Below are positions 27,421-37,179 of a DNA stretch of 37,282 bases, in pieces. This DNA is from Candidatus Hodarchaeaceae archaeon (lineage in GTDB: Archaea > Hadarchaeota > Hadarchaeia > Hadarchaeales > Hadarchaeaceae): assembly GCA_030018135.1 (NCBI GenBank), contig JASEGJ010000010.1, positions 1-37,282 on the forward strand. Reading direction: 5' to 3'. Every line of letters begins with the position of its first letter. The stretch's first letter is position 1. The position numbers and the translations under genes are program-made. The notes below the pieces were generated by a model. That model had not been told where the DNA came from, made no database searches, and was given only the letters and a program-made list of their open reading frames with translations.

Positions 27421-27433
27421 ATAACAACGTTAT
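27421..27433. promoter_or_regulatory. Operator candidate 1: ATAAC-AAC-GTTAT
   Basis: A perfect palindrome overlapping the TATA box (GTTATATTTATAAGG) of the Cys-rich peptide ORF. The sequence after it matches that at 37167 (operator, then TAT-ATAAGG) over about 26 bp allowing four differences. Confidence 0.75.
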
Positions 27434-27460
27434 ATTTATAAGGGGGGGGTTTATCGAAGT

Positions 27461-27473
27461 ATAACGGTGTGAT
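27461..27473. promoter_or_regulatory. Imperfect second operator: ATAAC-GGT-GTGAT
   Basis: One arm is identical to the palindrome and the other has one mismatch (GTGAT). It sits 40 bp after the perfect copy, close to the expected transcription start, and just before the ribosome site. A paired arrangement would permit cooperative binding. Confidence 0.4.
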
Positions 27474-27488
27474 AGAGGAGGTAATCCA

Positions 27489-27518
27489 ATGAGGAATAGC
27501 CTTTGCGCCTGCTGCTGA
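27489..27518 (+). CDS. Nine-residue Cys-rich peptide ORF, MRNSLCACC
   Basis: ATG 27489 is six bases after GAGGAGGT, the strongest ribosome-binding site near any gene here. The ORF is MRNSLCACC then TGA. It has its own TATA box and the sulfur-island operator upstream. No plus-strand gene follows: the next gene is on the minus strand and ends at 27579. A T-run (CCTTTTTCC, about 27537) could end the transcript. Three Cys codons in the last four suggest a Cys-sensing leader or a thiol-metal micro-peptide. Reading through TGA would add CVGR before TAG. Confidence 0.55.
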   Translation: MRNSLCACC

Positions 27519-27578
27519 TGCGTCGGGAGATAGGCCTTTTTCCTCCCAATTACCATCAACCGAAAACGAATTGTGTTC

Positions 27579-28373
27579 CTAATCTGTTTCTACCATATAT
27601 CTCTTCAGTTTCTCAGCGAGTTCGGCGGGAAGTGGCATAGATTCCATGAGCGTCGTATCCGTACAAACGGAAACGGTCGAGCACTCGGCCACCACTTTAC
27701 CCGACGTGAGATTTTTGATGACATTTCTGAACTTTATGTGCTTCCGTCCAACCTCTTCCACCCAGACCGCGACCTCGATCATGTTGTCCAATCTGACTGG
27801 CCCAAGTATCCTGCCCGAGGTCTCCACGGTTGGGACAAACAGGCCAAACTTGTGGATTAACGCGGCATAGCTGAAACCGAGGCCCTCGAGAAGCTCCTGC
27901 TGCGCCCGCTCGCAGAACCTAAAGTAGTTCGTGTAGTGCATGACTTGTAGGTAGTCCGTGTCCGAGAGGGAGACCTTATAAGATCTCTTGAAAGCGTTGC
28001 TGGGTATGAAAATTTCCTTCTCAGCGACTGCCATGGGTTCCGCTACCTCCGGCTCGATACTTGCTATCGACCCACGGACCCCTAAAGAATTCAGCAATTT
28101 ATCCGTTTCATCCGTGGCCTTTTCTTTCGCCGCTTTTTCGTCGAGCCCAGCATCCAGCAGTTCCTGTGTGCGGATGTCCCGGTACAATGCCACATTTTCC
28201 ATGAAATCTTCTGGGCTGAGCTTACCTATTATCATGCCGGCGTGGATCATGACCAAGTCACCGGACGAGATCCCGCTCGCCGCCACGACGACCTCTTTCT
28301 TAACTCCGCCGAAATCCACGAGGGCTGTGGGACCATCGAGGCTAAGGATTTTTGCTGGAACGCCCCAACACAT
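27579..28373 (-). CDS. HypC fused to a hotdog (4HBT) thioesterase-like domain
   Basis: 264 residues from ATG 28373, chosen because HypC needs Cys as residue 2 (MCWGVPAKI); GGGAG lies nine bases upstream. Residues 1-75 are HypC, the chaperone that with HypD carries the Fe(CN)2CO unit for NiFe hydrogenase. After a helical linker, residues about 125-264 form a YbgC-like hotdog domain (LSDTDYLQVMHYTNYFRFCE, then GPVRLDNMIEVAVWVEEVG). HypC is normally about 75-95 residues; this fusion is unusual. It overlaps nothing but starts one base after the hypD stop, so the pair is co-translated. Confidence 0.8.
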   Translation of the reverse strand: MCWGVPAKILSLDGPTALVDFGGVKKEVVVAASGISSGDLVMIHAGMIIGKLSPEDFMENVALYRDIRTQELLDAGLDEKAAKEKATDETDKLLNSLGVRGSIASIEPEVAEPMAVAEKEIFIPSNAFKRSYKVSLSDTDYLQVMHYTNYFRFCERAQQELLEGLGFSYAALIHKFGLFVPTVETSGRILGPVRLDNMIEVAVWVEEVGRKHIKFRNVIKNLTSGKVVAECSTVSVCTDTTLMESMPLPAELAEKLKRYMVETD

Positions 28374-28374
28374 G

Positions 28375-29622
28375 TTAGCCATCTCCCGATCGTGCCTCGG
28401 ATTTAACCGAACTCATCTCGCTGTACCTGGCCCAGATAGCGCATGCCCCCTCCGAGGATACCATACATGGCCCCCACGGGTTCAGCGGGGAGCAGCCCTT
28501 CATGAAGAGGGGGCAGTCCGCGGGCTTAGCTATGCCGACGATGACCTCGCCGCACCTACACCTTGGAGGGAGGTCGTGCTCCCATGGGACGCCGTGGTGC
28601 GCATGGGTGTAAATAAATTCCTTCGGGGTCAAATCCGGCACGTCGAAGTGTTTCAATGCATCATGCTTTTCGAAAAATTCCCCTTTGAGCTTGAGCCCGC
28701 TTCGGGGGATGAATCCGAGACCCCTCCAAGCCGCATATGCCCTTTCAAAGACCTCGTCAATCAATTTCTTCGCGTATTCGTTCCCTCCCCATTTCACGAG
28801 CCGCTTGTACTCTATCTTTACCGCGGGTCTGTTCTCCTTTATCATCAGGAGTATCTGGGCCACCGCCATCAGGACGTCGATCGGCTCAAACCCTGCGACC
28901 ACGGTGGGCAAACCGTGCACCCGCGGAAGGAACTCCCACTCCGCCGCGCCGATTATGGTTGAGACGTGGCCTGGCGCTATAACCCCCCTTATCGGCAACA
29001 ACCCGCGCTCTTGGTGGATCTTGACAGTGTACTTCATCGATGGCGGGGTCAACCTCATTACGTTAAGGAATTTTAGGTCCTCCGAAACCATTCCCCTCGT
29101 CAGCGTCAACGCGTAACTGGGGGCCGTCGTCTCGAACCCTATGCCGAAAAACACGCTCTCTTTTCCTTGCTCACGCGAGTCCCTTGCCGCATCGAGGAAG
29201 CTATAAACGACTTTGACATCGCCGCCATCCACCTTAACTTCTTGGAGGCTGGCAGGGCATCCGGCCTTTGCGCTGCGAAGTCTCAGCGAGTCGCCATAGG
29301 TGTAAATCCTGATGCCTTCCCGCGCGAGTTTTACTGCGACATCGACATAGTACGAGGGGACAACGCACACGGGGCAACCTGGTCCAGCCACCATGTCCAA
29401 GAAAGGAGGAAGGAGGTCCCTCAGGCCGTAGTAGGTTGTGGTCCATTCGTGGGTGCCGCAGAAGTTCATTATCTTGATCGCGTCGCATTTCTCCCTCTCC
29501 CTGATCGCGCTAGCGTACTTCCATATGGTGTCCCTAAGCTTCGACGCTAGCGGTAGGTTCTGCCTGAACACTTGTCTTATGAGTTCCCGGTCATCGAGCT
29601 GACTTTTCAAGTACCGCACCAT
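28375..29622 (-). CDS. hypD: HypD, hydrogenase Fe-site assembly scaffold
   Basis: 415 residues with MNFCGTHEWTTT, AGPGCPVCVVP, TFxFGIGFETTAP-type segment (FFGIGFETTAP), GVIAPGHVSTIIG, VAGFEPIDVLMA and the C-terminal 4Fe-4S Cys set (RCRCGEV, DCPLFMKGCSPLNPWGPCMV). HypD holds the iron while cyanide and CO are attached. The usual CGTHEHT motif reads CGTHEWT, losing one His. The upstream region has an AT-rich promoter-like stretch (29623-29660). hypE, hypF and hydrogenase genes are not in this window. Confidence 0.92.
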   Translation of the reverse strand: MVRYLKSQLDDRELIRQVFRQNLPLASKLRDTIWKYASAIREREKCDAIKIMNFCGTHEWTTTYYGLRDLLPPFLDMVAGPGCPVCVVPSYYVDVAVKLAREGIRIYTYGDSLRLRSAKAGCPASLQEVKVDGGDVKVVYSFLDAARDSREQGKESVFFGIGFETTAPSYALTLTRGMVSEDLKFLNVMRLTPPSMKYTVKIHQERGLLPIRGVIAPGHVSTIIGAAEWEFLPRVHGLPTVVAGFEPIDVLMAVAQILLMIKENRPAVKIEYKRLVKWGGNEYAKKLIDEVFERAYAAWRGLGFIPRSGLKLKGEFFEKHDALKHFDVPDLTPKEFIYTHAHHGVPWEHDLPPRCRCGEVIVGIAKPADCPLFMKGCSPLNPWGPCMVSSEGACAIWARYSEMSSVKSEARSGDG

Positions 29623-29703
29623 CCCGCTATCAAATCATGTCTTTAACTATTTAGGCAACGGAAAAAAATTCAGTTTTCCGCAATGCGGTGCCAATGCTGT
29701 TAT

Positions 29704-30139
29704 TCAAACCTTATCCGCTTCGAGCAATAGTCGGAGATCCTCATCCTTTAGGTCTGCCCTATGATATACTCTGACCAAGTAAGCTACCCGATCCGCAACC
29801 GATGACTCAACGCCTAGTTCACCCAAGATTTTTCGTGCAAGCTTTGAGCCTTTTCGGCAGTGGATTTCCATCTTTGAATTCTGGTCTTGAATGTTGCCCA
29901 CAAATCCCCCTCGGTATGGAAGGGAGTAACCAATATCATGGAGGTAAGCGGCTGCGATGAGCAACTGCTTGTTGAGCGTCGATGTTTTAAGGAGCCTTTT
30001 CACGTTCGCGACTACCTTCGCTGTATGCTCGTAGTACCTAGGCACGCTGTTCTCGAATATCTCCTTAACCCTTTGGTCCAGCTTCGTTTCAAGAGCCCGC
30101 AGCCATCTAGATGCTCTGCCTGTCGAACTCGTGCTTCAT
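29704..30139 (-). pseudogene. HD-domain phosphohydrolase-like protein, frameshifted at N-terminus
   Basis: The main frame reads RALETKLDQRVKEIFENSVP, RYYEHTAKVVANVKRLLKTS, AAAYLHDIGYSLPYRGG, MEIHCRKGSKLARKI: an HD fold with HT, HDIG-like and later His. The ATG at 30139 (MKHEFDRQS) is in another frame and runs into TAG about 10 codons later, so one indel near 30110 separates start and body. The ATG overlaps the stop of the hemerythrin-like remnant, so the two once formed an operon. Confidence 0.6.
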
Positions 30140-30447
30140 AAATTTTCAAATTTGTCATTTGAGCTTGCTGAGGAAGAGGTCATCCTGAGCTTGTTCATTA
30201 GGTCCTCATACGTCATCCTGTCTACCAAGCTCCAGTTGAACTCCTCTGCCTCCCTGAACTCCAAACGCAGCGCGTTATATGGACATGCGGGGGACATGCG
30301 GCGTGCGATGTCCCCAAGCTTTCTAGCTCCCCTTTGACCTGACTGAAATTTTCAGCTGCATTGGCTTTTTCGACTACTTGGTCCAGTTCGCCCCAACTTC
30401 TGCAGTATTACCTCGTGTTCCTCCTTCAGTATCTGAATTGGGTGCAT
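30136..30447 (-). pseudogene. Hemerythrin/HHE (DUF438-like) protein remnant
   Basis: From ATG 30447, MHPIQILKEEHEVILQKLG matches the first helix of hemerythrin-type HHE proteins. A shift near 30385 leads to ESLGDIARRMS, after which a deletion removes the His-pair helices, and the C-terminus (EEFNWSLVDRMTYEDLMNKL) stays open to TGA 30136. These proteins bind di-iron or oxygen/NO. It is inactive. Confidence 0.55.
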
Positions 30448-30506
30448 GGGATCTAGCGCCGAGGCCTTCCCAATAATCCGGTGAAAATTTTACTTGTCTA
30501 TAAGAG

Positions 30507-31133
30507 CTAATATTTTTTGCACAACCGAACGGCTTGCATAATATGGGCGGCATGAGCGTCAGCGCCCATCTCGTGCGCCAAGCTCTCCGAAGCGGCCGAT
30601 CCGCCGATGATAACCTTTACATTTTTTCTGAGCCCCCTCGCCTCCAACATCCCGACGGCCCGCCACGCCGCATAAATCGCCGTCGAAAGCCGCAGCGACA
30701 TTGCAGCGATGTCAGCTTTATGCCTCTCGACTGCTTTGACGAAGGTCTCCGGCGAAACGAAGACGCCCACATCCACCACCTCGAATCCCGCGGCCCTCAG
30801 CCACGTAGCCACCAAATTTTTCCCGATGTCGTGTACGTCGGGTCCGACCGTCCCGATCACAACCTTACCTAACTTTCCTCCTTCAGGTAACTTCGGTGCA
30901 AGCCTTTCCCGGGCCCTCTCAAACATCTCGGCGGCGATCAAGACCTCCGGCAGGAAAATTTCTTGTTTTTCATATGCTCCCCCGACGGCCATCATCCCCC
31001 GCGATAGGCCCCTCAAAATGGCTTGAGCTGGGATTTTCTGAAGTGTAGCCCTATCGATGTCCTCGAGGAGTCCCCTATAGTCGAGCCTACTTACATCTCG
31101 CTCAATTTCCCTCAAAATTTTAGCCATGGGCAT
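30507..31133 (-). CDS. Corrinoid protein of a methyltransferase system (MtbC/MtaC type)
   Basis: 208 residues. An N-terminal helical cap (about 1-85) is followed by the B12-binding Rossmann domain with DVHDIGKN (99-106; H101 is the cobalt ligand) and VIIGGSAASESLAHEMGADA. It carries a methyl group on cobalamin between two methyltransferases. The ATG overlaps the end of the UroD-like gene by 14 bp, so the two proteins are surely partners. No substrate-specific MtaB/MtmB/MttB gene is present here. Confidence 0.88.
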   Translation of the reverse strand: MPMAKILREIERDVSRLDYRGLLEDIDRATLQKIPAQAILRGLSRGMMAVGGAYEKQEIFLPEVLIAAEMFERARERLAPKLPEGGKLGKVVIGTVGPDVHDIGKNLVATWLRAAGFEVVDVGVFVSPETFVKAVERHKADIAAMSLRLSTAIYAAWRAVGMLEARGLRKNVKVIIGGSAASESLAHEMGADAHAAHIMQAVRLCKKY

Positions 31134-32175
31134 GGGCCTTCGCCACCTCCAACACGGCTTTAACCTTCGCCATGGCGCCGGCCTCGCCGAAGCTCCTGCC
31201 CGGGAATGGCCTATGCGTGTCTGTTAAAACCAGCCGCCTGCTGCCGTGGCGGCGCAGGAGTTTTTCCGCTACCCTGGCGACCTCCTGTGGTCCGACATCA
31301 TCCATGAACATGAGCTCTATCGGAATTCCCGTAAAGAAGACCATCTCGCTGACCGCCTTTCGGGCTTTCACGATTAAATCCACCCACTTGAGCGAATCGC
31401 CGACCGTAGCCTTGGGCGCGAAATCGAGCGGGTGGAGCGAGTCGTAACACCTCGCGAGCTCGACTAAAAGGTTTCGAACGAGAAGGTTACCATCCGCGTG
31501 CAACTTCGTGAATTTCCCCCGCTTCCTCACCTCGCCGGCCAGCTTCCTGTGCCAGCGAAGGTAGTCGCGTCGCATGAACCGGGCTGAGTAGTTTGGCCCC
31601 GCGTGGCCGCATGCGTCGTCGGCTATGCGCACCGCGTCGACGTAATTGAGTTCAGCTCCCACCTTCACCAGCTCGAGGATGTATGCGCCGCACCGGTCGT
31701 ACAGCTCGCGGCCCCTGCGTGGCCCCAACTCCGTCAGGATCGAAAAGTCGAAGTGATGCCTGGAGAGCGCCGGGTAAGTCGCGCGTTCAGGGTAGGCGAT
31801 GGGCGAGGGGGGCATGCAGAAGAATTCGCTCTGCTCGGTTGGCCCCAGGACCTCGAATACGACGAATCTATCATTCGTGAACCGCTCCATCTCTTCGACT
31901 TTGTTCATCGTCTCCTCGACGACCTCGTCGACGTCGGGCCAGTCGTACTCGTCCATGTCGAGCCCCTCCGACCACTCCCACAGGTCCCCCCCCTCGCGGC
32001 GCCTGAACGGACCTCCCTTCGAGAGAAAGGATCCCCACCTAGGCACCCATGCATGAATCACGACCGCATCGCCCAGCTCGTGCTCCAAGGTCTTTTGCTC
32101 GCTCTCGAACAGGAGTGGGATTCGAGGCGGCTCCTTGCCCTCAAAGACCGCGTGGACGAGTTCCCTCGAGTTCAC
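31120..32175 (-). CDS. UroD-family methyltransferase paired with the corrinoid protein
   Basis: 351 residues, TIM-barrel uroporphyrinogen-decarboxylase superfamily. N-terminal NSRELVHAVFEGKEPPRIPL is typical of MtaA/CmuA-like and O-demethylase-associated proteins. The zinc motif of MtaA (HxC) reads KLHADGN, with Asp replacing Cys, so metal or substrate use probably differs from coenzyme-M methyltransferases. It probably transfers a methyl group to or from the co-encoded corrinoid protein. An AAGGAGGGG ribosome site precedes the start. Confidence 0.8.
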   Translation of the reverse strand: MNSRELVHAVFEGKEPPRIPLLFESEQKTLEHELGDAVVIHAWVPRWGSFLSKGGPFRRREGGDLWEWSEGLDMDEYDWPDVDEVVEETMNKVEEMERFTNDRFVVFEVLGPTEQSEFFCMPPSPIAYPERATYPALSRHHFDFSILTELGPRRGRELYDRCGAYILELVKVGAELNYVDAVRIADDACGHAGPNYSARFMRRDYLRWHRKLAGEVRKRGKFTKLHADGNLLVRNLLVELARCYDSLHPLDFAPKATVGDSLKWVDLIVKARKAVSEMVFFTGIPIELMFMDDVGPQEVARVAEKLLRRHGSRRLVLTDTHRPFPGRSFGEAGAMAKVKAVLEVAKAHAHG

Positions 32176-32185
32176 CGAGCACCCC

Positions 32186-32496
32186 TCCTTGAAAAATTTA
32201 ACGCGATGCGCGGGCGAGATGCCTCTTGTAGGAGTTGGCGCAGTGCACGCAGCAGAACATCAACACCACATGAACGCGATGTCAGGCTGCGGTGAAGTTG
32301 CTGAGGTCCCCTTCCGCGACACATTCGATTTGCCCCCATAGGCTGCACTCCTCACAAATTCGCAGAAGCGCGCCGGCAATTTCGGCCTCTGCCCGGCAAT
32401 CACTTCCTTCGATATCTTTATCGCCACAGGGCTCGCCGAGAGCTGAAAGAATTTTCGAAATTTCTTTGATGTCCCCTCATACCTCATTTCATTCAA
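32186..32496 (-). pseudogene. DUF169-like N-terminal fragment plus CCxxC remnant
   Basis: ATG 32496 (inside the SepCysS stop region, 8-bp overlap) reads KKFRKFFQLSASPVAIKISK then PARFCEFVRSAAYGG, the N-terminal half of DUF169/COG2043. It ends at codon 78, where the family continues for over 120 residues. Beyond it another frame has VVLMFCCVHCANSYKRHL, resembling a TRASH/YHS metal-binding segment. I read this as a deletion joining two broken genes. Confidence 0.5.
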
Positions 32497-33709
32497 CCCC
32501 GATGTCGTATGACCTAGCTATTTCGTGAAATGCATCCGCGACCTTTTGAAGTTGATCTCGGTTCAGGCCGTAAGTGTTTAATTTTATCAGCTTGGTCATC
32601 CCTGGATGTATGCCGGATATCTTCCTCTTTTTAAGTTCCTCGTGGAGGAAGAACCCGCGCCGTTCATGTTTTTTGGCGACCCTGTGGAAGGATGGGGTTT
32701 CGAAGCTGACGAGGGTGTGCCGCCTCGGCCGTTCGCCAAGTTGGTGGAAGTCCTTGATGCGTTCTAATTCTTTTACCAACCACCTGATTTTCTCCACCTC
32801 CTCCTCCCAGCGCTTCACTCGCCCGACGACGTGCGGGAAGCTCGCCATTAGCGTCGCGATTGGCGCCCCGAACACTGGCGGACATCCGAAGAGGAAGACC
32901 TCTTTTTTAGCGAAGGCACGGCCGCTCCAAGGACCTTTGATCGTCGAAGTTCTGAAAACCTTATCTGCGAACTCATAGGTTGTTGCTAAAATTCCTATTG
33001 GCCCAGATGCAGCCCAAGATTTATGCCCGCTACCCACCAGAAAATCTGCCTGCAACTTTTTGCCGTCTACAGGCATAACGCCCGCCGTGTACGCGGCATT
33101 CAAGATGAAAGGTACACCGTAACTCTTAGCTATTTTTCCAACCGCAGCTGCTTCAGCGAGGTTCCCGTAGCGGTAGTCGGCATGCGTTAGAAGTACCGAC
33201 GCCGGGAGCTCACCCGTTTCTCGCTTGACCTCATCGATTTTTACCGCATAGTCGTCTGCCTTTATCTTGAACTCGGGATAACCGCTGTGCGGCACCTCGA
33301 CTATCTTGAGGCCGTTGAGCTCAGCTGCGATGTAAGTGGTGTAATGAGCAAGCGAGTCGATCACTACCATGTCACCAGGCTCAGTTATTGCCTTGAAAAT
33401 CGCATTTTTTGCGCCCCTTGCGCCTGGTGTGAAGTTGACCTCGTCCATGTTCAAAAACTTGGCCACATCGTCGGCGAAGTCGAATATGGGCGGTTTTTTC
33501 ACCAGGTCAACGCGACCCTCTAAACAATAATCGCAGACGCTGTAGCCGTCGGCGAATGAGAGCAGGGTCTCGCGGGTTTCCGGGGGCAGTATTCCTCCCC
33601 TTTGAATCGGGTGTAAATTGATCCAACTCTCGTCGACCTCTCGGCGGAGGTTTTTGTATATGTCGAGATTTATTTCTCTCACCCTATCGTCCCCAAGAAA
33701 CTGTCCCAC
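32489..33709 (-). CDS. pscS: Sep-tRNA:Cys-tRNA synthase
   Basis: 406 residues, PLP fold type I. The PLP Lys is K230 in GSGHKSWAASG. The three Cys needed for sulfur relay are present: C59 and C62 (YSVCDYC) and C276 (FGCPP). NLHPIQRGG is the substrate-phosphate region. It turns phosphoseryl-tRNA(Cys) into Cys-tRNA(Cys), and with SepRS is the only Cys route in several archaea. The start is GTG 33709, with a perfect ATAAC-N3-GTTAT operator 8 bp upstream. An internal GTG near 33682 is an alternative. The divergent neighbour is a TusA-like sulfur carrier. Confidence 0.93.
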   Translation of the reverse strand: MGQFLGDDRVREINLDIYKNLRREVDESWINLHPIQRGGILPPETRETLLSFADGYSVCDYCLEGRVDLVKKPPIFDFADDVAKFLNMDEVNFTPGARGAKNAIFKAITEPGDMVVIDSLAHYTTYIAAELNGLKIVEVPHSGYPEFKIKADDYAVKIDEVKRETGELPASVLLTHADYRYGNLAEAAAVGKIAKSYGVPFILNAAYTAGVMPVDGKKLQADFLVGSGHKSWAASGPIGILATTYEFADKVFRTSTIKGPWSGRAFAKKEVFLFGCPPVFGAPIATLMASFPHVVGRVKRWEEEVEKIRWLVKELERIKDFHQLGERPRRHTLVSFETPSFHRVAKKHERRGFFLHEELKKRKISGIHPGMTKLIKLNTYGLNRDQLQKVADAFHEIARSYDIGVE

Positions 33710-33716
33710 GAACTTA

Positions 33717-33729
33717 ATAACTGTGTTAT
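33717..33729. promoter_or_regulatory. Operator candidate 2: ATAAC-TGT-GTTAT, divergent promoter
   Basis: A perfect palindrome in the 18-bp space between SepCysS (minus) and the TusA-like ORF (plus). TTTAAC on the minus side and CTTAATAAC on the plus side are possible TATA elements that overlap it, so a bound protein would block both promoters. Confidence 0.75.
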
Positions 33730-33982
33730 GTTAAATATCCTTTATCGAAAGCAAGGGTCGGCTCGAAAAATCGATATCCGGGGCGATGTTTGCCCTTACA
33801 CATTCGTGAAGTCGAAGCTCGCGCTGGAGGACATGGAGGGCGGCTAGGTGCTCGAGATCATCGTCGACCACGCGCCTGCCGTCGAAAACGTCCCGAGGAG
33901 CTTGACCAACGAAGGGCATAAGGTGCTCGAGGTTAGACAGGTTGGGGAAAGCGAGTGGAAGATCGTCGTGAGGAAGGCTTAG
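33728..33982 (+). pseudogene. TusA/SirA-like sulfur carrier with an internal TAG
   Basis: One frame from ATG 33728 to TAG 33980 (84 codons) encodes KIDIRGDVCPYTFVKSKLAL, the TusA fold with catalytic Cys in the CPxx motif, then after codon 40 (TAG, 33845-33847) VLEIIVDHAPAVENVPRSL and GESEWKIVVRKA. The TAG replaces a position that is Glu or Gln in relatives (G-E-V-L), i.e. one base change. Both halves are well conserved, so the break is recent, or the stop is read through. It shares an operator with SepCysS, for which it could deliver persulfide sulfur. The only available ATG overlaps the operator. Confidence 0.7.
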
Positions 33983-34396
33983 CGAACCTTTATTTCAAGT
34001 TCCTCAATTCTACCACCCTTGCAAATGTAGGCCCTTCTTTCTCTGATTTTTTTCCTTCGTCGCGCCTACGATTAGCCACGCCACGTCGGGCCATAGAGCC
34101 AAGAACTCCGCGTCCCTGCCGCTCACGTGGGCGCTGGCATTTGGGTGGGAGTGATAGATGCCGATGAGCGCCAGCCCCCTTGACTCGGCTTCCACGATGG
34201 CATTGTAGACGAATTCCGCGTCTATTTCGAAGATTGTCGCCGATTCCTCGATATTTTCGGCCGAAATTACATCCTCGACATTTAGGTCCGCGTTCGCCCG
34301 CTCCCCCACCAATAGACCACAACATTCCACGGGGAAGCACTTCAGCGAATGCTCATCGATCGCGCGCAGGTCCTCTTTTTGGATCTTGAGCCTCAT
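33979..34396 (-). CDS. JAMM/MPN+ metalloprotease, frameshift in an A7 run
   Basis: About 138 residues after joining frames. The JAMM residues are all present: Glu in PVECCGLLVG, HSHP and the S-x2-D of HVSGRD. The first frame ends early (KKGLHLQGW, stop 34010). Skipping one A in the A7 run (about 34045-34051) instead gives RERRAYICKGGRIEELEIKV and a TAA at 33979, the normal family C-terminus, whose stop overlaps that of the TusA-like ORF by 4 bp. Archaeal JAMM proteins remove ubiquitin-like SAMP/MoaD/ThiS modifiers or process carrier precursors. It may act in this sulfur island or on the MoaD-MoeB fusion. Confidence 0.75.
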
Positions 34397-34445
34397 CCGT
34401 CCACCACTTGACTAAACCCCCCCTTCCAAATTTAAAGAAAGAATT

Positions 34446-34532
34446 CCACCAGTCTTTGACTGGTGGTAACCCGTAGCTGAGTGACAGCATCCTGAAGTCG
34501 AGCATTTCATGCCGCCGGTCTTTGACCGGCGG
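34446..34532. repeat. Paired 9-bp hairpins with TTT loops and compensatory changes
   Basis: The first hairpin has arms CCACCAGTC and GACTGGTGG (34446-34466). The second has arms CCGCCGGTC and GACCGGCGG (34512-34532). Both loops are TTT. The stems differ at two pairs, A-T against G-C, each with both bases changed, so pairing is conserved. The 45 bp between contain no ORF. They sit between the JAMM and ThiI-type genes, 50 bp before the operator. They could be IS200/605-type ends, a MITE, or a structured RNA. Confidence 0.7.
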
Positions 34533-34581
34533 TTCTTGACAAACAAAAACAAATATGTCGCTAAAATCACGCTCGCTTTTA

Positions 34582-34594
34582 ATAACGTCGTTAT
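34582..34594. promoter_or_regulatory. Operator candidate 3: ATAAC-GTC-GTTAT
   Basis: A perfect palindrome 23 bp upstream of the ThiI-type start codon, overlapping the TATA-like CTTTTAATAAC. Confidence 0.75.
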
Positions 34595-34617
34595 GCTAAA
34601 AATTCTTAGGGTTCGCC

Positions 34618-35283
34618 ATGAGGGAAAAGGTCGTGTGCTTGGTCTCAGGGGGCATAGATTCCCCGGTCGCCTGCGCCTTGGCCGCTAGTAGGTTCGAGGT
34701 TTTGCCGCTTCACTTCTGCCTTTACCCCTACACGTGCGAGGAGACATTCCTCGTGGCGATGGAGGTGCTGAAGGATCTCAGGAAAAAGGCCAAGTTCAAG
34801 AAGGTCATCGTCTACCCCTGGGCGAGGATTTTGGACGCCATCCTGAAGTATCGGGAAAAGAGGAGCTACGCTTGCCTCGCGTGCAGGAAGAGCATGTTTG
34901 AGGTCGCCGAATCCATCTGCGAGCGGGAGGGGGCGGCGGGAATAGTAACGGGGGAGTCGCTCGGGCAGAAGGCGACTCAGACGTTGACGAACCTTGGTGT
35001 GACCTCCCGGGGGATCAAATTTCCGATCTTCAGGCCCTTGCTCGGCTTGGACAAGGAGGAGATAGAGGGGATCTCCAAGCGGATGGGCATCTGGCACGAG
35101 GTACACGCCGGCTGTTGCTTCGCCACCCCGAGGTACCCGCGGACGAGGGCTGAGCTCGAGGTGCTCGACAAGTTCCTCGAGGACCTAAGGATTCGAGAGG
35201 CGATTCAGCGGGGTTTTGAGGGGATTTTGGAGGTCCGCACCTTCGAGGAGGACTTCAAGGGCTACCTCGAGGCACTCGCATAG
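34618..35283 (+). CDS. ThiI-type PP-loop sulfurtransferase, no THUMP domain
   Basis: 221 residues. The PP-loop is SGGIDSP (10-16). The region YACLACRKSMFEVAESICER, then IVTGESLGQKATQTLTNLGV, is diagnostic of the ThiI AANH domain (tRNA 4-thiouridine synthase / thiazole sulfur donor). The N-terminal ferredoxin-like and THUMP domains are missing, so tRNA recognition must differ, or it serves thiazole or another thiolation. Cys pairs (CLAC, GCC near 164) could relay sulfur. The operator lies immediately upstream. ATG 34618 follows TTAGGG by five bases. Confidence 0.85.
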   Translation: MREKVVCLVSGGIDSPVACALAASRFEVLPLHFCLYPYTCEETFLVAMEVLKDLRKKAKFKKVIVYPWARILDAILKYREKRSYACLACRKSMFEVAESICEREGAAGIVTGESLGQKATQTLTNLGVTSRGIKFPIFRPLLGLDKEEIEGISKRMGIWHEVHAGCCFATPRYPRTRAELEVLDKFLEDLRIREAIQRGFEGILEVRTFEEDFKGYLEALA

Positions 35284-35341
35284 TTCTGGGCCCTGCGATG
35301 ACACTTTTGGTCGTCGACAGGGTGTTGACAAACCTTGGCGT

Positions 35342-36189
35342 TCACCTGAGCTTTTCCAAGATCGCGTGATGCCTCTCGCAGAATTCGTGTTCCTTCGGGC
35401 CGAGTTGGGCTAGGATGACCTCCTCCTGCCAATGGCCATTAAAGAGCCGACACTTCCTGTCGGGGCAAAACGGCTCGAGCATGAGGTGATGGAAGATAGC
35501 CTGCATCACATACCCCTTCATCACCTCCGTGAGCCTATCGTCGTCGTAATCGATGAACCTGCCCTTGAACCTCTCCTTCAACGCCTCTATGGGCACACCG
35601 CTCATCCCCAGCGCCGCGTATCGCTGCTTGAGTAGGTAGAACTCCTTGGGCTTGGCGGGCGCCTCGACGATACCAGTGGTGGAGATGATGGAAGGGAGGC
35701 CGTAGACGCTCACGCGCGCGTGGTATCTCCGGTCTCCCTCGTCGAAAGTGGCGAAGAAGCGGTTCGTGAAGATAATGTGAGCATGCTCGATGCTGAACTC
35801 GTCAGTTGGCAGAATTTCCCGGAGCAGCGCTTGGAGCTTGAATCCATCGTAGAGCACCCCAGTGAGCCTGAGGCTGGGGTCGCGAAGGAGCTTACGCTCG
35901 AACTCGATTTCACCGGGGAGTGGCTCAAAGTGCGTGTCTGGGTTCGACGGGTCGCGGATCTTCGTCTTGGCCAGCTTCAGAGCTAGGGCTTCGATTTTAT
36001 CCGGCGAAGTTGCTTAATGAAAGGTCCTCGCACCTCGACCGGGACCTTGCCAAATTTATCCTCCAGACAGCGGGCAATCTCAAACAGGTCGAGGGTCTTA
36101 GCTGAGAGGTCTTGGTACAAGTGGATGCTAGGCAAACGTTCGCTTATCACCGTTGAGTTGCTCATGTAGAGCACCACGTCTATTTTCAA
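35342..36189 (-). pseudogene. Putative metallopeptidase (DUF6775-like), frameshifted
   Basis: The N-terminal frame from ATG 36189 (MKIDVVLYMSNSTVISERLP...FIKQLRR) stops at 35983. The remaining frame (SPDKIEALALKLAKTKIRDP...) is open from about 36012 to 35342 and contains HIIFTNRFFATFDEGDRRYH, SIISTTGIVEAPAKP and a His/Cys-rich end (FHHLMLEP, CPDRKCRLFNGHWQEE). One base gained or lost near 36005 restores a protein of about 282 residues. The assignment to the DUF6775 putative metallopeptidases is by recollection of the central motif. It is downstream of thi4. Confidence 0.55.
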
Positions 36190-36270
36190 GCAGTTGTACT
36201 ACTTTAAGCGCTCCACCATACGCTCCGAAGGAAAGGATGAAAAGCGATGTGCAAATGGTAACTTGATCTT

Positions 36271-37056
36271 CTATAACTCCTGTAACTTCTGATACGCGAC
36301 TTCCGCTGCTCGCCGGCCGCTGATCAGCATCGAGCCGAAAGTTGGACCCATCCTCGGCAGGCCGTAGGCCGTCGTCACCGCCATCCCCGCAACGATGAGG
36401 CCTGGGTAGACCTCCCCCGTATGCTCGACAACGAGATCCTCGGAGCGCTCGACCCACATGGCCCCGTAGCCCGGCACCCTGATCAGGCCTCGCCGCTCGA
36501 GCAGGCGCACCACGGCCGCGTCGTGCCCCGTCGCATCGATCACGAGCTTGCTCTCCAGCCCGACCGGGTCAACGCATGTCAGCTCGCGGGGCAGCGTCGA
36601 CACGGGGGTCCAGTTGATAACAACGCCTCCCACGCGGTTCTTCTCCCGAAGCACGATGTCGTCGATCAGCGCCATGTTGAGTATCTTCGCGCCAGCGTCG
36701 CAGGCGGCGGCGATCAGCCTTGAGCAGGCGTGGGGACCATCGGCCACGTAAAGGCCCTTCGACGACTCTATGTAGGGGACCCTCAACTCATCGAGGATTT
36801 TTTGCGCTGGTGCTCGAATAGTAACCTTGTTGAGCAAAAACCCGCCGATCCAGAAACCCCCGCCTAGGTAGTTGTTCCGCTCGACGACGAGGGTGTTCAC
36901 GCCTCGCTCCGCCAGCCCCTTTGCGGCCATCAGACCGCTCGGGCCGCCTCCGACCACTATCACATCGCTCTCGGCGTATTTTTGAAAATCCTTCATGAAC
37001 TCGCCGACGATCGCCCTCGTTATTTCCTTTTCCCCCGCCGGTTCAAAGGCTACCAT
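36271..37056 (-). CDS. thi4: Thi4 thiazole synthase, Cys-type active site
   Basis: 261 residues from ATG 37056 (GTG 37065 also possible). The FAD/NAD Rossmann motif is [19 protein letters not shown], followed by [21 protein letters not shown] and [16 protein letters not shown]. It builds the thiazole phosphate precursor of thiamine from NAD, glycine and sulfur. At the position where methanogen enzymes have His and accept sulfide (H-V-D-P), this protein has Cys161 (LTCVDP), like the yeast suicide enzyme that donates its own Cys sulfur. An operator overlaps its promoter at 37167 with a leader of roughly 80 nt. Confidence 0.88.
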
Positions 37057-37166
37057 TTCCACCACCGTCCACCGCTGCTATTTTCAAATCAGCCAAATCC
37101 TCGCCCTCTTGGGTATTAAGTTTTTGTTTTTCAAAGATCTCCTCGCTCCCGCATCGCCTTATTTAT

Positions 37167-37179
37167 ATAACAGTGTTAT
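37167..37179. promoter_or_regulatory. Operator candidate 4: ATAAC-AGT-GTTAT (Thi4 promoter)
   Basis: A perfect palindrome overlapping AT-rich TATA elements. On the minus strand the operator is followed by ATAAATAAGG, closely matching the segment after operator 1. The next gene upstream ends at 37196, so the site can only serve thi4. Confidence 0.75.

Follow-up and report, generated by a model that had tools for sequence, protein, structure and literature searches.

Four promoters on a 37,282-nucleotide contig of Candidatus Hodarchaeaceae archaeon (Hadarchaeota; JASEGJ010000010.1) carry the same palindrome, ATAAC-N3-GTTAT, and the question is which regulator acts on it and what this regulator senses. 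The window, that is, the whole stretch analysed, is an entire contig (C1) of a 93%-complete assembly of 1.108 Mb in 45 contigs. The original prediction took the palindrome for the operator of an archaeal sulfur or cysteine regulon, and the target genes in relatives support this. We consider it probable that a relative of the archaeal regulator ThiR that lacks the ThiN domain uses ATAAC(R-N-Y)GTTAT as its operator. This protein would be an autoregulated repressor blocking the TATA boxes of genes for sulfur mobilisation and iron-sulfur (Fe-S) assembly, and it probably senses Fe-S clusters.

The operator and its target genes

Exact copies were found at positions 27421, 33717, 34582 and 37167 of the window and nowhere else in it, as predicted. 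The base composition gives an expectation of 0.019 copies (Poisson probability of at least four about 5e-9), and 100 dinucleotide shuffles of the window yielded no exact match. The sites are:

27421..27433, unstranded: operator 1, ATAACAACGTTAT, exact match, abutting the TATA box TTTATAAG
27461..27473, unstranded: imperfect copy, ATAACGGTGTGAT, a second operator facing operator 1 across the TATA box TTTATAAG
33717..33729, unstranded: operator 2, ATAACTGTGTTAT, exact match, common to two divergent genes
34582..34594, unstranded: operator 3, ATAACGTCGTTAT, exact match
37167..37179, unstranded: operator 4, ATAACAGTGTTAT, exact match, abutting TATAAATA of thi4

All four exact sites are located at promoters. 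Site 33717 lies at the start of the SepCysS gene on the minus strand and overlaps the ATG of a TusA-like open reading frame (ORF) on the plus strand. Site 34582 is found 24 base pairs (bp) ahead of a ThiI-like ORF, and site 37167 upstream of Thi4. Site 27421 is situated between the 3' ends of the TBP and HypC genes, which both converge on it, so that its sole candidate target is a tiny ORF at 27489. The imperfect copy, with one mismatch, starts 40 bp past this site, and thus two operators flank one TATA box.

The complete assembly contains five exact operators, the fifth one (C23:1713) upstream of an ORF without known function, and no match to a reversed control pattern. In its own genome the motif is therefore rare and promoter-located, not common in coding DNA or at unrelated promoters. 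When two mismatches were allowed in a 15-base motif, the genome gave 20 matches against 26 for the control; as this relaxed motif showed no excess, no additional sites are claimed.

In 41 relatives the operator is again rare and clustered. It recurs in other genera and families upstream of the orthologues of SepCysS, the ThiI-like gene and Thi4 (as Thi4-DUF6775 and as a LarE-like/Thi4 operon), and it precedes further sulfur genes. These are NifS-IscU, a Csd-ThiF-NifS-IscU-regulator operon, the homocysteine-synthesis enzyme HcyBio and the sulfate-activation operon TauE-AprA-ferredoxin-Sat. The operator was also observed at a heavy-metal ATPase gene, the iron-uptake operon FTR1-DtxR-FeoB and the gene of a protein resembling the ThrRS editing domain. 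In four genomes tRNA-Cys follows directly, with a gap of 9-16 bp. A curated table, built by hand from the regions around sites, comprises 36 promoter sites in Hadarchaeota with 44 pairs of site and target; it is hence a list, not an unbiased rate. By a hand count over the 12 regulator-bearing genomes and G000, about 36 of 53 exact sites are at such promoters, the remainder being mostly intragenic, chiefly in G001.

The central triplet is biased to R-N-Y, which lengthens the palindrome. The operators overlap or abut the TATA box on either side, and some lie between it and the start codon. Such placement is expected of a repressor, and steric repression fits it better than activation. Taken together, the comparison of genomes gives good support to the operator and to the putative sulfur and cysteine regulon.

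The genes behind sites 33717, 34582 and 37167 are:

32489..33709, minus: SepCysS, Sep-tRNA:Cys-tRNA synthase (TIGR02539, 513 bits, cut-off 365)
33728..33982, plus: TusA-like sulfur carrier ORF, interrupted by TAG, its start codon overlapping operator 2
34618..35283, plus: ThiI-like PP-loop sulfurtransferase, a lone PP-loop domain of 221 amino acids (PRK08349 150 bits, TIGR00342 134 bits, both below cut-off)
36271..37065, minus: Thi4, sulfide-dependent ADP-thiazole synthase (TIGR00292, 256.6 bits, cut-off 148.3)

Of the originally named targets, SepCysS and Thi4 exceed the cut-offs of their families; the ThiI and TusA-like genes need qualification. The predicted ThiI is a lone PP-loop domain that scores 134 bits with the ThiI model, against a cut-off of 264.5. 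The TusA-like ORF contains an in-frame TAG at 33845-33847, where a relative (G008, L037:7175) has the glutamine codon CAG; this may be a sequencing error, a pseudogene or a case of stop-codon recoding.

Several neighbouring genes were noted. The DUF6775-like gene behind Thi4 (35342-36189, minus) appears by eye to be split into two ORFs, and is a single gene of about 290 amino acids in relatives. HypC (27579-28382, minus), which adjoins HypD, appears by eye to be fused to a thioesterase-like domain. The segment 30507-32175 (minus) holds a corrinoid protein gene (best NCBIfam model MtgC/MtbC, below cut-off) adjoining a UroD-like methyltransferase gene.

A candidate regulator paired with the operator

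In relatives the operator also heads the gene of a small helix-turn-helix (HTH) protein of roughly 100-130 amino acids; the regulators taken together span about 97-155. The protein combines M(K/R)PPCE..., an HTH with ITQPAVSQYL and a subsequent YCxxC, so that its cysteines follow the pattern Cys-x(~87)-Cys-x2-Cys. In a wider alignment, Cys 5, 90/92 and 93/95 are at least 90% conserved; C-xx-H and CxxC are often present as well. Each of the 12 Hadarchaeal genomes encoding the protein has a copy of the operator in the promoter of its gene, either perfect or with a single mismatch. Exact operators occur in 11 of the 12 Hadarchaeota genomes that have the protein and in 4 of the 16 that do not (Fisher P 6e-4). 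The small HTH protein is thus likely to be the regulator of the operator.

AlphaFold models of the regulator are confident (pLDDT 88) and all-helical, with a long N-terminal helix. Foldseek searches with them retrieved no solved relative beyond the HTH, and a Pfam scan of two regulators returned generic HTH models only. Literature searches for a name of the family or for an archaeal Fe-S regulator yielded nothing relevant within a coverage that mostly excludes subscription journals.

A profile search of genome contigs with the regulator alignment had its closest matches in Hadesarchaea (Hadarchaeota). Searches with the regulator gave 75 archaeal loci, and in 13 of these an exact operator lies no more than 150 bp upstream of the regulator gene. 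Motifs with one of six other spacings, and likewise four control palindromes, never occur in that position in the same loci, and only 10 further exact operators are present in their 860 kb. Loci with the operator-regulator pair include those of Aenigmatarchaeota, Nanoarchaeota, Nanohaloarchaea and an Aciduliprofundum. In two of them (L059, L066) the operator is followed, in this order, by the regulator, sufC, sufB and other suf genes. Another (L053) reads tRNA-Cys, cysteinyl-tRNA synthetase, editing-domain protein, operator, regulator, nifS, iscU. In the phylum of genome G031, the regulator is encoded by 128 of 156 genomes, and the exact operator was found in 15 of 26 readable regulator promoters, in most cases at a distance of 43-49 bp ahead of the start codon. 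The regulator-found loci also contain 111 occurrences of the spacer-4 variant ATAAC-N4-GTTAT, probably a repeat array in one or few loci.

Predicted mechanism and alternative readings

A dimer of the regulator is predicted to bind operator DNA (TATAACRNYGTTATA, TATAACAGTGTTATA) across or beside the TATA box and to block assembly of the pre-initiation complex. The predicted targets would serve cysteine formation on tRNA (tRNA-Cys, SepCysS), sulfur mobilisation (NifS/Csd, TusA, the ThiI-like protein, E1-like ThiF) and Fe-S building (IscU in Hadarchaeota, SufCBDSU in Aenigmatarchaeota and Nanoarchaeota). They would also serve sulfide use (Thi4, homocysteine synthesis, APS reductase/ATP sulfurylase) and iron uptake (FTR1-FeoB); the regulator's own gene completes the list. 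The three near-invariant cysteines comprise one near the N-terminus and the pair of the CxxC that follows the HTH; their probable role is to hold an Fe-S cluster, zinc or a persulfide being less likely. Repression would be relieved when clusters or sulfur are short. As the targets span iron, sulfur and their joint scaffolds, Fe-S status is the suggested signal. Of the original proposal, a regulator sensing cysteine, sulfide or persulfide, the regulator has thus gained a candidate in relatives, whereas the suf, IscU and iron-uptake targets and the conserved cysteines favour a sensor of Fe-S or of a cysteine-ligated metal.

Several observations weigh against this model. The original prediction had noted that the window encodes no HTH regulator; the candidate was not found in the whole assembly either, in searches with a single sequence and with 8-row and 26-row alignments, and IscU was not found there. 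The genome is one of the four operator-bearing genomes without the regulator. Since the regulator and IscU genes are often neighbours in relatives, one assembly gap could remove both, and incompleteness is the likely cause. This explanation is unproven, as the two genes accompany each other in some genomes but not in others: G017, G025 and G026 gave a match to the regulator and none to IscU, and G003 and G021 gave a match to IscU and none to the regulator. In G001, 7 of 11 sites look intragenic, as chance would give. Most Methanobacteriales homologues have no exact operator upstream, and the pairing is therefore not universal. Some Nanohaloarchaeal homologues that lack the cysteines still keep the operator; hence DNA recognition does not require the cysteines, and Fe-S sensing is not common to all homologues. 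Several exact sites in DPANN genomes (L158, L234, L239, L241, L243, L245) are upstream of orc1/cdc6-like genes, outside the sulfur reading; possible explanations are origin repeats and a second function of the palindrome.

Two side observations concern the same groups. The Nanohaloarchaeal genomes G050 and G052 (of loci L090 and L122), whose regulator homologues lack the conserved cysteines, contain 23 and 38 exact sites, whereas the control pattern gave 2 and 0 matches. Up to four exact motifs occur within 300 bp in L245, upstream of an orc1/cdc6-like gene.

The alternative readings differ in what they change. The same regulon and regulator could operate with cysteines that bind zinc or carry a thiol or persulfide switch, so that cysteine, sulfide or persulfide would be sensed directly. 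CxxC and C-xx-H...C-xx-C are also zinc motifs, the latter common to ThiR, and the regulon includes genes of cysteine synthesis and sulfur relay. On the other hand, the suf, IscU and iron-uptake targets better match an Fe-S readout, and the trio of N-terminal Cys and CxxC is absent from ThiR and so is not simply structural. We regard direct sensing as a possible but clearly weaker reading. Further from the model is a ThiR-type thiamine operator, with a regulator answering to thiamine phosphates and Thi4 and the ThiI-like gene as the real targets. Homology of the regulator to the N-terminal half of ThiR, the same operator at haloarchaeal thiamine promoters and the presence of Thi4 and ThiI-like genes in the regulon all speak for it. 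However, the regulators have no ThiN effector domain, and most targets (tRNA-Cys, SepCysS, NifS-IscU, suf, Apr-Sat, FTR1-FeoB) are not thiamine genes, which makes a thiamine response improbable. Finally, the shortness of the motif and the mostly intragenic sites of G001 might suggest that the copies cluster by chance or belong to a repeat of mobile or structural nature. The expectation of 0.02, the differing flanks and above all the conservation at orthologous promoters across families and phyla refute this reading, which retains a negligible probability.

A separate question is the only candidate target of operator 1:

27489..27518, plus: cysteine-rich tiny ORF MRNSLCACC-stop, nine codons, preceded by GGAGGT and having a TATA box

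This ORF looks like the leader of a cysteine attenuator, orphaned in the window. Genome G016 has the relative MRDLLCGCCDCC-stop (L164), which follows an operator and precedes TauE-AprA-ferredoxin-Sat. A degenerate codon search of 61 genomes recovered the pattern only twice, in the window and in G016, in both cases 43-68 bp after the operator start; a degenerate copy in G001, MRDLVCLNSD, occupies the same position. Among 31 genomes, a close TauE is present only in G001 and G016. The two occurrences behind operators, the operon in G016 and the copy in G001, together with the TATA box and GGAGGT, argue against an ORF that arose by chance or was left over from a lost operon and has no function as a leader. 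The opposite is suggested by the fact that no plus-strand gene follows in the window before the convergent HypC, by G000 having only a distant TauE elsewhere in the genome, and by the fold of the transcript RNA, which is no better than that of shuffles (z -1.0). A chance or relic ORF seems to us somewhat less probable than a leader.

Relation to known regulatory systems

Our literature search, whose coverage mostly excludes subscription journals, did not turn up any archaeal regulator dedicated to the assembly of Fe-S clusters or to the synthesis of cysteine. For bacteria, a review names IscR and SufR as dedicated regulators of Fe-S biogenesis. The putative family identified here by comparative genomics could represent a ThiR-derived, cysteine-ligated sensor of Fe-S or sulfur, distributed over Hadarchaeota and several DPANN phyla, dedicated to Fe-S and cysteine supply and controlling even tRNA-Cys. 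In Hadarchaeota it may be layered on a leader peptide of cysteine codons. In this full form the proposal is tentative, and we would put it slightly on the doubtful side; the leader part, if true, would provide an archaeal example of control by a leader peptide. A metabolic regulon that includes tRNA-Cys is reasonable, since cysteine is made on this tRNA in the SepRS/SepCysS route. The protein family, the operator and the target list are now available and directly testable in vitro.

Polycysteine leader ORFs of mycobacteria (Canestrari et al. 2020, as cited in PMC13236596) are similar in that a short cysteine-rich ORF stands ahead of a sulfur-assimilation operon, which is true of G016 (L164). 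They differ in that the candidate archaeal leader lies behind a transcriptional operator and is orphaned in the window.

The predicted repressor logic of Fe-S biogenesis is that of IscR, a member of the Rrf2 family; however, the Pfam scan of two regulators gave no Rrf2 match (PF02082). SufR of cyanobacteria and actinobacteria is similar in layout, being an autoregulated gene at the head of a suf operon, as in L059 and L066, and has a palindromic AAC/GTT operator and cysteines beyond the HTH. According to PMC8593673, SufR binds CAAC-N6-GTTG, not ATAAC-N3-GTTAT, and holds a [4Fe-4S] cluster. The archaeal regulators do not match the SufR/DeoR family (no NCBIfam match at or above cut-off, one DeoR match far below it). 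Their cysteines are arranged as C5 ... CxxC, often with C-xx-H and CxxC in addition, whereas the SufR site is C-X12-C-X13-C-X14-C. The stand-alone regulator is also much smaller and its regulon wider.

The closest relationship is with ThiR. Profile matches on haloarchaeal plasmids are proteins of 308-314 amino acids with a C-terminal ThiN domain (PF10120), which we take to be members of the published ThiR family. ThiR, reportedly described by Rodionov and colleagues in 2017, is an archaeal thiamine regulator composed of HTH and ThiN. The regulator is homologous to its N-terminal HTH half (hhalign probability 98.9%, E 1e-17, 123 columns), and the same operator, with 0-1 mismatch, stands upstream of haloarchaeal thiR or thiD-thiR in four of four promoters, its neighbours being tenA, thiD or thiR. 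The operator is thus not exclusive to sulfur, being common to ThiR-type thiamine regulators in haloarchaea. Both ThiR and the stand-alone regulator are associated with thi4-type genes, and the C-xx-H...C-xx-C segment is kept in ThiR and in many stand-alone regulators. On the other hand, ThiN occurs only in the 308-314 amino acid haloarchaeal proteins, the N-terminal C5 and CxxC trio only in the stand-alone ones. The regulon of the latter consists mostly of cysteine, sulfur and Fe-S genes, with Thi4 and the ThiI-like gene as its thiamine-type members. The stand-alone regulators may be described as a ThiN-less branch or a sister of ThiR, in which cysteines would replace the thiamine sensor. This suggests that one HTH-operator pair has been put to two uses, thiamine control in combination with ThiN and sulfur control in combination with cysteines.

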